From Microgenomates group bacterium ADurb.Bin219 (GTDB lineage: Bacteria > Patescibacteriota > Microgenomatia > UM-FILTER-40-11): DNA of 37,339 nucleotides. The stretch spans positions 1 to 37,339 of the forward strand of contig MWCH01000011.1 of the NCBI GenBank assembly GCA_002069945.1, given 5' to 3'. The notes beneath the pieces are model-generated. The model had not been told where the DNA came from. It saw nothing but the letters and a program-made list of their open reading frames with translations, and did not search any database. Positions 24,087 through 29,475 of the stretch are shown here, one piece after another. Made by a program: the position numbers and the translations under genes. Positions within the stretch are counted from its first letter, which is position 1; each line of letters opens with the position of its first letter.

Positions 24087-24143
24087 GTGCGACCATGCAA
24101 TGTTACTACTACAGAGCTCTCTGTAGCAAAAGCACGGTCGCAC
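24087..24143. repeat. Nested perfect palindromes between convergent genes
   Basis: Outer arms GTGCGACC (24087-24094) and GGTCGCAC (24136-24143) enclose an inner perfect hairpin CTACAGAG/CTCTGTAG (24109-24126) with a 2-nt loop. It lies between the plus-strand gene ending at 24028 and the minus-strand gene ending at 24159. It may be a bidirectional end signal or a structured RNA 3' end; no T run follows on either strand. Confidence 0.6.
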
Positions 24144-24158
24144 AGCGTCCTATTTAGT

Positions 24159-24497
24159 TTACTTAGACCGGAGTGACGAAGCGGGATACCATCCCGCTTG
24201 TCCCGAGTCCAGAAGGACTCGGTAGCACCCGTTGCCGGAAAAGGTTCCGGCATTATTGGGGGCTATTCTTCCTAATCCGTTCTGTGGGACTTCATTCCCA
24301 CAGGTAATGTAATGGCCTGTGGGATCATTGAATTCCCAGAGCCATCCGATGAGGCTGTGGCATTCGGGGTTCCAGTACCCCGGGCCGACGACCTGAACTC
24401 GGTCTCCTTGGCGGTATTCGCTGGTCAGCCCGACCAGCCCGGGAACAAAGAAGATCGCCAGAATTACTAACAAAACGATCAAGGCGAAATATTTCAT
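24159..24497 (-). CDS. Small secreted or membrane-anchored SH3-like protein
   Basis: 112 residues. An N-terminal hydrophobic helix (3-24) acts as signal or anchor. The rest begins YRQGDRVQVVGPGYW and ends GQAGWYPASSLRSK, a pattern like a bacterial SH3-type barrel. Four Cys residues (two near the middle, one near C67, one near C92) could form disulfides outside. AAAGGAG lies 6-7 bases before the ATG. The coding sequence contains six perfect short hairpins of 6-9 bp, listed in the findings. The gene has a long leader with a 12-bp hairpin. Exact family unknown. Confidence 0.7.
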   Translation of the reverse strand: MKYFALIVLLVILAIFFVPGLVGLTSEYRQGDRVQVVGPGYWNPECHSLIGWLWEFNDPTGHYITCGNEVPQNGLGRIAPNNAGTFSGNGCYRVLLDSGQAGWYPASSLRSK

Positions 24498-24520
24498 TTT
24501 TTTCTCCTTTTCGGGTGTTT

Positions 24521-24577: not shown

Positions 24578-24590
24578 CTTGTCAAAGAGC
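24578..24590 (-). promoter_or_regulatory. boxA-like element
   Basis: The minus strand reads GCTCTTTGACAAG in the leader, close to rRNA boxA antitermination sites (GCTCTTTAACA). Confidence 0.4.
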
Positions 24591-24650: not shown

Positions 24651-24680
24651 GCATAATACTTCAATTTTTTTTATTTGGCA

Positions 24681-24719
24681 ATAAAAAACCCGCCTTAAGA
24701 ACAAATGCTTTAAAGCGGG
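24681..24719 (-). terminator. Intrinsic terminator of the 25967-24833 small-gene operon
   Basis: On the minus strand, stem CCCGCTTTAA/TTAAGGCGGG (10 bp with one mismatch) followed by TTTTTT. It lies about 115 bases after the last gene of the operon. Confidence 0.8.
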
Positions 24720-26181: not shown

Positions 26182-26715
26182 TCAACGGGTGGGTGAAGAT
26201 GAGTAAGTCAAATGGGCAACGGCGGGTTCTTTTGCTTCGTCCACAGAGGCCTGTTTTACCACAGCCTCGTCCATCATAGAACGGCCGACGTTAATGAGCA
26301 ATTCAAAAACTATTGTCTGACCGACGGCAATCGCAATACAGATTACGTCGTTCCAGTGTTCAGGGCAACCTTGAAAAGTTGCCCAAGCATCGACGATATA
26401 AAGTCCAATAAGAAAAACAAAAGTAAGTGAGTCGATGAATCTCTCGACCTTGACTTCCTTGAATTCAAAACCCCATTGGCGAGCAATATTGTTAGCTCGC
26501 GGGGCGACGGTGGAGAGAATAATAAACCAACCTGCATATTCAAGTAGGTTGACTATTCCTCCGACTGAGAGTGATAGCCAATCGACGATTCCATTGCCTA
26601 CGAACCTTGCGGTTGTGTAGGCTTGGAAGGCGAAAGAAACAAGAGCCCCTACTTGTAATACAATTCCCATTTTGTGTAAAACCCACGGATGTCCGCTCAT
26701 ATGAACCGACAACAT
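26182..26715 (-). CDS. Four-helix membrane protein of unknown function
   Basis: 177 residues. The start is set by AGGAGG 4 bases before the ATG. Membrane helices at about 17-38, 44-72, 98-115 and 122-145; a charged loop (GFEFKEVKVERF) lies between helices 2 and 3 and the tail is Ser/Ala-rich. No family recognised. It is a single-gene unit with a strong promoter, a short leader carrying a boxA-like site and a downstream hairpin. Confidence 0.65.
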   Translation of the reverse strand: MLSVHMSGHPWVLHKMGIVLQVGALVSFAFQAYTTARFVGNGIVDWLSLSVGGIVNLLEYAGWFIILSTVAPRANNIARQWGFEFKEVKVERFIDSLTFVFLIGLYIVDAWATFQGCPEHWNDVICIAIAVGQTIVFELLINVGRSMMDEAVVKQASVDEAKEPAVAHLTYSSSPTR

Positions 26716-26734
26716 CTCTTCCTCCTGTGTACGA

Positions 26735-26748
26735 GATTTTAAAGAGCG
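26735..26748 (-). promoter_or_regulatory. boxA-like element
   Basis: The minus strand reads CGCTCTTTAAAATC, matching the boxA core GCTCTTTAA, just after the predicted transcription start. Confidence 0.45.
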
Positions 26749-27978: not shown

Positions 27979-28079
27979 TGCGGGGGAAGGGAGTTGAACC
28001 CTTATCTCGGCAAGGGAAAGAGAGAGCGCCCAAGCTCTCGTACTTTATTGCCAAGGTTCTGCCTTTGAACTACCCCCGC
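27979..28079 (-). tRNA. tRNA-Gly (probably CCC) with a ~31-nt insertion in the anticodon loop
   Basis: Acceptor GCGGGGG/CCCCCGC, U8-A9, D arm GTTC-AAAGGCA-GAAC, and T arm AAGGG-TTCAACT-CCCTT are Gly-like; discriminator A. Anticodon stem TTGGC/GCCGA encloses 38 nt rather than 7. The last seven (TTCCCTT) form a loop with U33 and anticodon CCC at 28016-28014, leaving about 31 nt inserted before it, with an internal hairpin GAGAGC/GCTCTC. The insertion would sit at 31/32 or 32/33, not the usual 37/38, and position 37 would be U, which is odd. The 5' end lies four bases after the stop of the 28084 gene, so the two are one transcript. Confidence 0.6.
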
Positions 28080-28083
28080 GATT

Positions 28084-28359
28084 CTATCTGGCGTTAGCAA
28101 CCTCAGCTACTGCTCCAAAGAGATCTCCCGGATCCTCTCGTGTTTGGATAAGATCAGTGAGGGCGTAAAGTCTTAAAAGACCATGCTTTCCTTCACGCAT
28201 CCAGCAGGAATGTTCTCCTTCTTTAGGGTGAGGGTCTTCTGCGGAAACAACGTCTCTTGTTAGCAAGAGATCCCTTTCGGGATCAAGCCCGAAGAGGCGG
28301 CTGAGGCCTTTTCTTGGGGTGTTTTTGATCAGAACAAGACGAACGTTCTTTTTTTTCAA
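28084..28359 (-). CDS. Small protein of unknown function, co-transcribed with tRNA-Gly
   Basis: 91 residues from a TTG at 28359, chosen because AAAGGAG lies 7 bases upstream; an in-frame TTG at 28389 precedes the ribosome site and is rejected. The N-terminus is basic (KKKNVRLVLIKNTPRKGLSRLFG), the middle has GEHSCWMREG and the end is Ala-rich. No family recognised. Two adjacent perfect hairpins lie inside the coding sequence (TCTCTTG/CAAGAGA and GATCCC/GGGATC, 28253-28284). Strong promoter and boxA-like leader. Confidence 0.6.
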   Translation of the reverse strand: MKKKNVRLVLIKNTPRKGLSRLFGLDPERDLLLTRDVVSAEDPHPKEGEHSCWMREGKHGLLRLYALTDLIQTREDPGDLFGAVAEVANAR

Positions 28360-28380
28360 TTTACCGCTCCTTTCTCTCTC

Positions 28381-28395
28381 GGATTTCAAAGAACA
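28381..28395 (-). promoter_or_regulatory. boxA-like element
   Basis: The minus strand reads TGTTCTTTGAAATCC, nearly the TGTTCTTTGAAAAC form of Gram-positive rRNA boxA. It is followed at once by CCGAGAGAGA. Confidence 0.5.
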
Positions 28396-28438: not shown

Positions 28439-28489
28439 GAAAGCTTATCGAAGTTTGGAAGTTTATTTGATACAACCGAGAGAGAGCAG

Positions 28490-28546
28490 CCTGCGGCTCA
28501 CTTAGCTTATGGGGGAAAATCCCCAAATAGCCTAAGGAGCCGCAGG
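28490..28546. repeat. Long rod-like hairpin
   Basis: Outer 10-bp stem CCTGCGGCTC/GAGCCGCAGG, then CTTAG/CTAAG, then GGGG/CCCC at the tip. No T run follows. It lies at the 3' end of the DksA/zinc-ribbon/tRNA-like unit. Confidence 0.65.
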
Positions 28547-28555
28547 GGACGATCA

Positions 28556-28603
28556 ATCCGCTAACCGTTTCTACCCACCATTGGGTAGAATAAGCTAGCG
28601 GAT
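28556..28603. repeat. Second rod-like hairpin next to the tRNA-like element
   Basis: ATCCGCTA/TAGCGGAT (8 bp), a symmetric 7x7 internal loop, then CTACCCA/TGGGTAG with loop CCAT. It ends 2 bases from the tRNA-like element. Confidence 0.65.
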
Positions 28604-28605
28604 AG

Positions 28606-28676
28606 GGCGCGGAGAAGGTTTTGAACCTTCAAGCACCGACAGAGTCGGTGGCCCTACCGATTTGGGTTTTCCGCGC
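28606..28676 (-). tRNA. Atypical tRNA-like element (cloverleaf with TCT in the anticodon position)
   Basis: 71 nt. Acceptor GCGCGGA/TCCGCGC (7 bp), D arm with ATCGGTA loop and CCC/GGG stem, and T arm GAAGG-TTCAAAA-CCTTC are tRNA-like. The anticodon arm CACCG-ACTCTGT-CGGTG would give TCT (Arg), but position 33 is C instead of the near-universal U, position 8 is A instead of U, base 26 is missing and the variable loop is only 3 nt. The anticodon arm can also zip to 7 bp with a TCT triloop. It starts 24 bases after the zinc-ribbon gene. It could be a degenerate tRNA or a tRNA-mimic. Confidence 0.45.
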
Positions 28677-28700
28677 AAATAAACAGGAAGGAGACGGAGT

Positions 28701-28850
28701 TTACTTTCTTTGCCTAGGGCAAAAGTTCCTAGACTCAGAGGGCTGCTGGAAGTGACCCGGTCTTGGGTTGCACCGATTGCAAACACCGTGGCGCAGCCGC
28801 GCACCGCATCGTTGGCACTTGTCCAGCCTTTCTCTTCCTTTTGTAAGCAT
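28701..28850 (-). CDS. 49-residue zinc-ribbon protein
   Basis: ATG at 28850 with GAGGGAG 5 bases upstream. C12-xx-C15 and C24-xx-C27 (KCQRCG, then VCNRC) form a four-cysteine ribbon; the rest is basic. It begins 19 bases after the DksA/TraR-like gene and is followed by the tRNA-like element. Longer overlapping frames here have no ribosome site. Function unknown. Confidence 0.6.
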   Translation of the reverse strand: MLTKGRERLDKCQRCGARLRHGVCNRCNPRPGHFQQPSESRNFCPRQRK

Positions 28851-28869
28851 TTGTCTCCCTCGTGTTTGG

Positions 28870-29283
28870 TTAGATTGAACAACCGTAGGCCGGGCTGACT
28901 TCCGGCTTGCGGTGACTTGACCCAGAATGGGGTTCTTTCTGGGGGATAATTCTCTTCTTCTGGTTCTGGTCGCGGCGGTCCTGACACTTGGCGCAGCGGG
29001 TTGTGGTCGGCATTGCCTTTCGTCTTTCTTCGGGAATCGGCTTCTCACAATCTTCGCAGGTATTTCTACCCTTGCCTTCTCGCAGGGCTCTCTCCGCATC
29101 GTCTAATTCCATGAGGCACGTCTCAATTATCTTGATTTGCGCCTCAATTTCGGAGCATGAGACGCAAGCGGTGGGGTCTGGATCATGGGACAACTCGTGC
29201 ATCTCCTTGAGCTGGCTCGTCAATTGCTTCAGCCTTAACTCAAGTTCCGAGCGTCTTTTCTTAATCGCGGCCATGTCACACAC
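28870..29283 (-). CDS. DksA/TraR-family zinc-finger protein
   Basis: 137 residues from GTG at 29283 (AAAGGAGG 9 bases upstream; an ATG three codons on is possible). Helical coiled-coil region (5-70) with an extra Cys pair (C40/C43), then the C4 finger C76-xx-C79 (TCEDCEKPIPEER) and C97-xx-C100 (TRCAKCQ), the hallmark of the family. Members bind RNA polymerase through the secondary channel and adjust promoters. The usual acidic coiled-coil tip is not clearly present, so polymerase control is unproven. It heads a unit with the zinc-ribbon gene and tRNA-like element, and has a leader of about 190 nt. Confidence 0.85.
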   Translation of the reverse strand: MCDMAAIKKRRSELELRLKQLTSQLKEMHELSHDPDPTACVSCSEIEAQIKIIETCLMELDDAERALREGKGRNTCEDCEKPIPEERRKAMPTTTRCAKCQDRRDQNQKKRIIPQKEPHSGSSHRKPEVSPAYGCSI

Positions 29284-29475
29284 GACAGATCCTCCTTTGA
29301 GATTTTTGTTGGTTGCCTTGGATTGAGTCCAACCTATTCCAACTCGACCACCCCCCTTCTGGATTGAATTTTGCGTTGTTTACTCTCTCTCGGTTGTTAA
29401 AGAACAAAAAATAGGTTTTGATTGTCCTCTCTGCTTATAGTCAGGAAATTAAAACCTATAGGATTTACTGTTTGT
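29284..29475 (-). promoter_or_regulatory. Long structured leader of the DksA/TraR-like gene
   Basis: Predicted start near 29469. The leader holds a pair ATAGGTTTT/AAAACCTAT, the boxA-like site with CCGAGAGAGA, a hairpin TTGGA/TCCAA inside GGTTG/CAACC (about 29310-29333) and then the AAAGGAGG site. Together with the promoter and the upstream part of nrdD it accounts for the 313 bases without a protein gene. Confidence 0.45.
29392..29406 (-). promoter_or_regulatory. boxA-like element
   Basis: The minus strand reads TGTTCTTTAACAACC, matching rRNA boxA TGCTCTTTAACA at all but one base. CCGAGAGAGA follows immediately (29393-29384). Confidence 0.55.

Follow-up and report, generated by a model that had tools for sequence, protein, structure and literature searches.

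An open reading frame of 112 codons on the minus strand of the 37,339-nucleotide stretch analysed here (the window) is built as a string of short-loop hairpins beyond what its coding content and composition account for, and it is headed by a leader with a boxA like that preceding the rRNA genes of the same genome. Our best explanation is that antitermination of the rRNA type has been co-opted by mRNAs and here lets a hairpin-armoured message be transcribed; taken as a whole, with 24159-24497 transcribed as a unit of one gene that encodes a small protein, exported or anchored in the membrane, we give this explanation an even chance of being right. The first-pass annotation of the locus had recognised the hairpins and overlooked the leader with its rRNA-type boxA and 21-bp stem-loop. 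From upstream to downstream, the elements of the locus are:

24683-24719, minus strand: terminator-like stem-loop with a T-run, seen by eye and absent from the consensus scan
24653-24681, minus strand: putative sigma-70-like promoter TTGCCA-17-TATTAT (10/12, a consensus match only)
24650-24645, minus strand: additional TATAAT
24579-24590, minus strand: boxA GCTCTTTGACAA, meeting the consensus GYTCTTTRACAA
24520-24567, minus strand: leader stem-loop between boxA and Shine-Dalgarno, 21 pairs with one 1x1 mismatch (leader z -6.4)
24504-24509, minus strand: Shine-Dalgarno AAGGAG, 6 nt before the ATG
24159-24497, minus strand: open reading frame, 112 codons (112 aa), with all six hairpins inside
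24420-24438, minus strand: hairpin, 7 bp, loop 5, GCTGGTC/GACCAGC
24365-24382, minus strand: hairpin, 6 bp, loop 6, CGGGGT/ACCCCG
24282-24303, minus strand: hairpin, 8 bp, loop 6, CTGTGGGA/TCCCACAG
24233-24252, minus strand: hairpin, 8 bp, loop 4, TGCCGGAA/TTCCGGCA
24203-24222, minus strand: hairpin, 8 bp, loop 4, CCGAGTCC/GGACTCGG
24179-24199, minus strand: hairpin, 9 bp, loop 3, AAGCGGGAT/ATCCCGCTT
24087-24143, minus strand: large stem-loop GTGCGACC...GGTCGCAC directly past the stop codon, without a T-run

All six hairpins claimed in the first-pass annotation have arms that are exact reverse complements at their coordinates; the stem given there as GCCGGAA/TTCCGGC (24234-24251) is present but one pair longer, at 8 bp (24233-24252). 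The 339 bases were compared with 500 dinucleotide shuffles and with 600 versions in which the gene's synonymous codons had been permuted. Six stems had 6 bp or more, against a mean of 0.48 and a maximum of three in the dinucleotide shuffles and a mean of 0.92 and a maximum of five in the codon permutations, which gave a mean of 0.38 (maximum three) stems of 7 bp or more, where five were observed, and of about 0.10-0.11 (maximum two) stems of 8 bp or more, where there were four. The minimum free energy (MFE) of the coding RNA, -144.9 kcal/mol, was more stable than that of all 600 codon permutations (-116.1 +/- 5.8 kcal/mol, z = -5.0), and z was -6.0 when codons were drawn from genome usage and -3.8 when drawn from the gene's own usage. 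The density had been described as unexpected in a normal ORF, and this holds, since both stems and MFE lie outside shuffled and codon-permuted expectation; the further suggestion that the mRNA itself is selected to be structured gains partial support from an MFE outside the codon-shuffled range.

The excess is mainly one of short loops: among the loop classes tested, the gene has six stems with loops of 3-8 nt, two with loops of 9-14 nt and none with loops of 20-65 nt. The first 59 nt of the ORF contain no perfect short hairpins. In a scan of the whole genome (892,032 bases) 24159-24497 was the densest hairpin stretch, and by codon permutation it and C12:1-957 are the two most stem-enriched of 814 ORFs, the latter being a minus-strand ORF cut by the contig end and the only other one with a comparable hairpin string. 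The codon-permutation null is itself too low for stems, as ORFs genome-wide carry about 1.3 times the permuted number at every loop size, a ratio also found in one related genome. This bias is far below the 6- to 40-fold excess seen here and thus does not explain it, and the flatness of the ratio across loop sizes makes a general mutation bias toward short-loop palindromes unlikely. As for a similar excess in other small genes, it was found in C12:1-957 by hairpin count and in the ORF at 26715-26182 by MFE only, and not in small genes generally.

The encoded 112-aa protein has a strongly hydrophobic N-terminus of the signal or transmembrane type, and its C-terminal '...GCYRVLLDSGQAGWYPASSLRSK' is SH3-like as judged by eye only. 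It had no match in Pfam, PHROG or PDB, and among 137 related genomes no homologue appeared apart from two weak hits (E about 0.001), of which one has four stops within the match; searches of genome_contigs, viral contigs and phages for homologues were likewise negative. Its structure model was of low confidence (pLDDT 53), and a structure-based search was dropped because the prediction was too uncertain. Rfam covariance models at gathering and relaxed thresholds gave nothing credible at the locus. Elsewhere in the window, an Rfam match over 101 bases marks a tRNA at 27979-28079 that ARAGORN missed, which may reflect an unusual insertion, and 846-2864 encodes a collagen-like protein of 672 aa with G-x-T repeats, its coding DNA being GC-rich and structured.

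The leader, about 150 nt from the putative promoter to the ORF, and the message together amount to about 570 nt of RNA with strong folding, in which the boxA is only slightly more unpaired than its surroundings (0.49 versus 0.41). The terminator-like element at 24719-24683 may set the unit apart from the upstream minus-strand genes, and the stem-loop at 24087-24143 is probably the 3' end structure of the gene. The boxA and stem-loop leader is well supported, and its two elements point to transcription antitermination; we infer a functional link between this leader and the coding hairpins.

BoxA, to which NusB and NusE bind in the leaders of rRNA, acts there together with NusB and S10 to render RNA polymerase processive, and antitermination through boxA was long seen as reserved for rRNA and lambdoid phages. 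In this genome, which encodes NusB and Rho, the rRNA boxA is GTTCTTTGACAA, found 118 nt before the 16S gene (C6:18336-19906) and 92 nt before the 23S gene (C6:27511-30634). The two rRNA genes lie about 7.6 kb apart with an opposite-strand ORF between them, each with its own boxA (C6:18218-30634; L009:18218-19906, L049:7419-10634). The gammaproteobacterial consensus is GYTCTTTAANA (PMC5725501). We searched with a strict motif, GYTCTTTRACAA, which covers the rRNA boxA of this genome; the motif itself was taken from rRNA and the literature, and the set of sites was gathered after the discovery of boxA in these leaders. The 96 kb of intergenic DNA contain eight strict matches against a mean of 0.075 for shuffled motifs, whereas ORFs contain one against a mean of 0.42. 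Two of the eight precede rRNA and six precede protein genes: C11:24580 (the hairpin gene), C11:29395, C2:78032, C6:22101 and C7:48013 each stand ahead of an ORF with a Shine-Dalgarno, at distances of 37-141 nt, C2:78032 leading a lipoprotein-like NMT1-family protein, and C7:44819 lies ahead of a group of small ORFs. Among the looser matches are C12:1081, C11:26737, C11:28384, C3:57496 and C3:70472, and several of the loose sites may be due to chance; the boxA of C12:1-957, GCTCTTTTAAA, is such a loose match. Three further units with boxA or boxA-like elements lie in the window:

26182-26747, minus strand: ORF of a 177-aa membrane protein (26182-26715) with the boxA-like GCTCTTTAAAA at 26747-26737; coding MFE z -5.3
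28084-28394, minus strand: boxA-like GTTCTTTGAAA (28394-28384) and its short ORF
28870-29405, minus strand: boxA GTTCTTTAACAA (29405-29394) and a DksA/TraR zinc-finger ORF

The ORF at 26182-26715 has unusually stable coding RNA, yet few perfect short hairpins. Downstream of the boxA-led DksA/TraR-like ORF (28870-29283, minus strand), 28440-28870 contains several perfect stems of 7-9 bp and is possibly a structured 3' region or a non-coding RNA. The boxA-like GTTCTTTGAAA also occurs at C8:27787 (L053:7787), with a TATAAT box on one side and a tRNA cluster on the other.

Across this genome the median coding MFE z was -1.43 in 12 boxA-led ORFs and -0.47 in 108 controls (p 0.003), a shift driven by three ORFs (C12:1081, -7.5; C11:26737, -5.3; C11:24580, -4.4 in this smaller run), most boxA-led ORFs being only mildly structured. 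Both of the top hairpin-enriched ORFs among the 814 have a boxA-type leader, for which the chance is about 2e-4 if 12 of 814 are boxA-led. In relatives, boxA-led ORFs were as structured as controls (median z -0.41 versus -0.45). A general rule of strong structure in boxA-led ORFs was rejected, the effect being confined to a few genes here and absent from relatives; the boxA leader is accordingly the more widespread feature, of which hairpin-string coding is a special case with two examples. The proposed link from boxA to hairpin-rich coding is based on two or three genes. A hydrophobic N-terminus was found in 13 of 22 boxA-led proteins, compared with about 32% of ORFs (p 0.008).

The combination of boxA and a long stem-loop recurs. 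A genome scan for stem-loops with 18 or more pairs gave 24 entries over both strands, 19 of them intergenic with strands counted separately, and four of these 19 (C11:24520, C12:1017, C2:78067 and C3:57410) are placed between a boxA and an ORF, 22-48 nt past the boxA (Fisher about 2e-6, with approximate background counts). The four stems are unrelated in sequence and alike in size and shape, with 19-23 pairs and one or two 1x1 mismatches, and their leaders fold with z of -6.4, -4.8, -6.4 and -7.1, respectively. Among relatives of the same class, L079, L086, L092 and L094 have an intergenic boxA followed by a strong leader stem-loop (leader z -5.1, -5.3, -6.2 and -9.3), and in L100 the stem-loop that comes after the boxA, GCCACCTCC/GGAGGTGGC, has a 3' arm similar to a Shine-Dalgarno. 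With nine strict matches this genome has the most among 39, the 38 relatives having zero to four each. In 126 relatives the spacing of boxA and Shine-Dalgarno was only about two-fold enriched over a reversed control, many matches not being intergenic. A search of the literature, mostly non-subscription papers, for either boxA or antitermination in combination with the names of candidate phyla returned nothing relevant.

The closest known systems share some of these features. The boxA of the hairpin gene shares its core with that of the 16S and 23S genes here and, as in the boxA leaders of bacterial rRNA operons (NusB-NusE/S10), stands in a leader ahead of a structured RNA; it differs in heading a single protein-coding mRNA and in being separated from the Shine-Dalgarno by a long stem-loop. 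E. coli lpp reportedly has a hairpin-rich, stable mRNA, and like the hairpin gene it encodes a small exported protein from a structured message; it was rejected as a precedent for the density, having two stems of 6 bp or more and a z of -1.05 by the same measures. The few mRNA targets of boxA described from gammaproteobacteria include suhB and CKO_00699 (a ParE-like toxin) (Baniulyte et al. 2017; PMC5725501), and in these two, as in the hairpin gene, boxA lies in the 5' UTR of a protein-coding gene. That study, which searched within 50 bp of the start codon, found few targets per species (PMC5725501), whereas this genome has six strict and several loose non-rRNA boxA sites, several with long stem-loops. 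No Nus factor was recognised among the boxA-led proteins examined in this genome. BoxA also occurs upstream of CRISPR arrays according to Stringer et al., as cited in PMC7862264, and in Legionella its addition before a synthetic CRISPR array raised precursor-crRNA about 10-fold along the length of the array (PMC7862264). Such an array resembles the hairpin gene in being a non-rRNA transcript of serial elements, but its repeats are identical and non-coding, whereas the stems of the hairpin gene differ in sequence and lie within an ORF. It is on this parallel that we propose the same role for the hairpin-gene boxA.

It is possible, though in our judgement rather unlikely, that the coding hairpins were selected for themselves, for mRNA stability or translation pacing, and that the boxA has a separate role such as suhB-like autoregulatory repression. 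In E. coli the boxA of suhB indeed represses translation, with no antitermination (PMC5725501), and a coding MFE z of about -5 together with relatives whose boxA-led ORFs are not hairpin-rich would fit such a separation, but the presence of a boxA-type leader on both hairpin-string ORFs of the genome would not. The hairpins could instead be functionless products of mutation, left in a fast-evolving gene by template switching or by the correction of quasi-palindromes, in keeping with perfect Watson-Crick stems, short loops, the orphan status of 24159-24497 and the excess of small inverted repeats that has reportedly been seen in prokaryotes. We consider this improbable, since the ORFs of the genome show no short-loop bias (a ratio of about 1.3 at loops of 3-8 and of 40-50) and a mutational process would therefore need to act on two genes only.

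The Shine-Dalgarno is good, the frame of 112 codons is open and begins with a hydrophobic, signal-like N-terminus of typical kind, the first 59 nt are free of perfect short hairpins and Rfam gives no match; the locus is therefore very unlikely to be mainly a structured non-coding or dual-function RNA in which the ORF is secondary, even though an rRNA-like leader, strong folding over about 570 nt and the failure to find a homologous protein would suit that view. Finally, the finding was picked by eye out of a larger scan, and clustering by chance would be expected at some rate when much sequence is searched; yet four stems of 8 bp or more, where 0.11 would be expected, correspond to about 6e-6 per gene and 0.005 over 814 ORFs, and a second, independent ORF has the same hairpin property and the same type of leader, so that chance is a most unlikely explanation.

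The predicted transcript has the architecture of a structured RNA: downstream of the putative promoter come, in order, the boxA, the 21-bp stem-loop, the Shine-Dalgarno, the hairpin-string ORF and a closing 3' stem-loop. If rRNA-type antitermination has been co-opted as we propose, NusB and S10 (NusE) would bind the boxA of the nascent leader and turn RNA polymerase into the processive, Rho-resistant form usual on rRNA, and the converted polymerase could then copy a message whose hairpins would otherwise lead to pausing or termination. The leader and coding hairpins may in turn shield the finished message, for an exported protein, from nucleases, and we infer from sequence that the hairpins were selected for such RNA stability.

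More tentatively, the rRNA antitermination signal may have become, across an entire class of bacteria with small genomes, a regulatory mRNA module of boxA, a long sequence-variable stem-loop and a Shine-Dalgarno that serves lineage-specific, mostly exported proteins, and in this species may permit hairpin-armoured coding that is otherwise poorly transcribed. If so, the many boxA-led protein genes, several with a common stem-loop leader, would give the Nus complex a broader part in regulating mRNAs in a poorly studied lineage, and would offer a testable reason for a coding sequence to tolerate, or even need, a string of strong hairpins.
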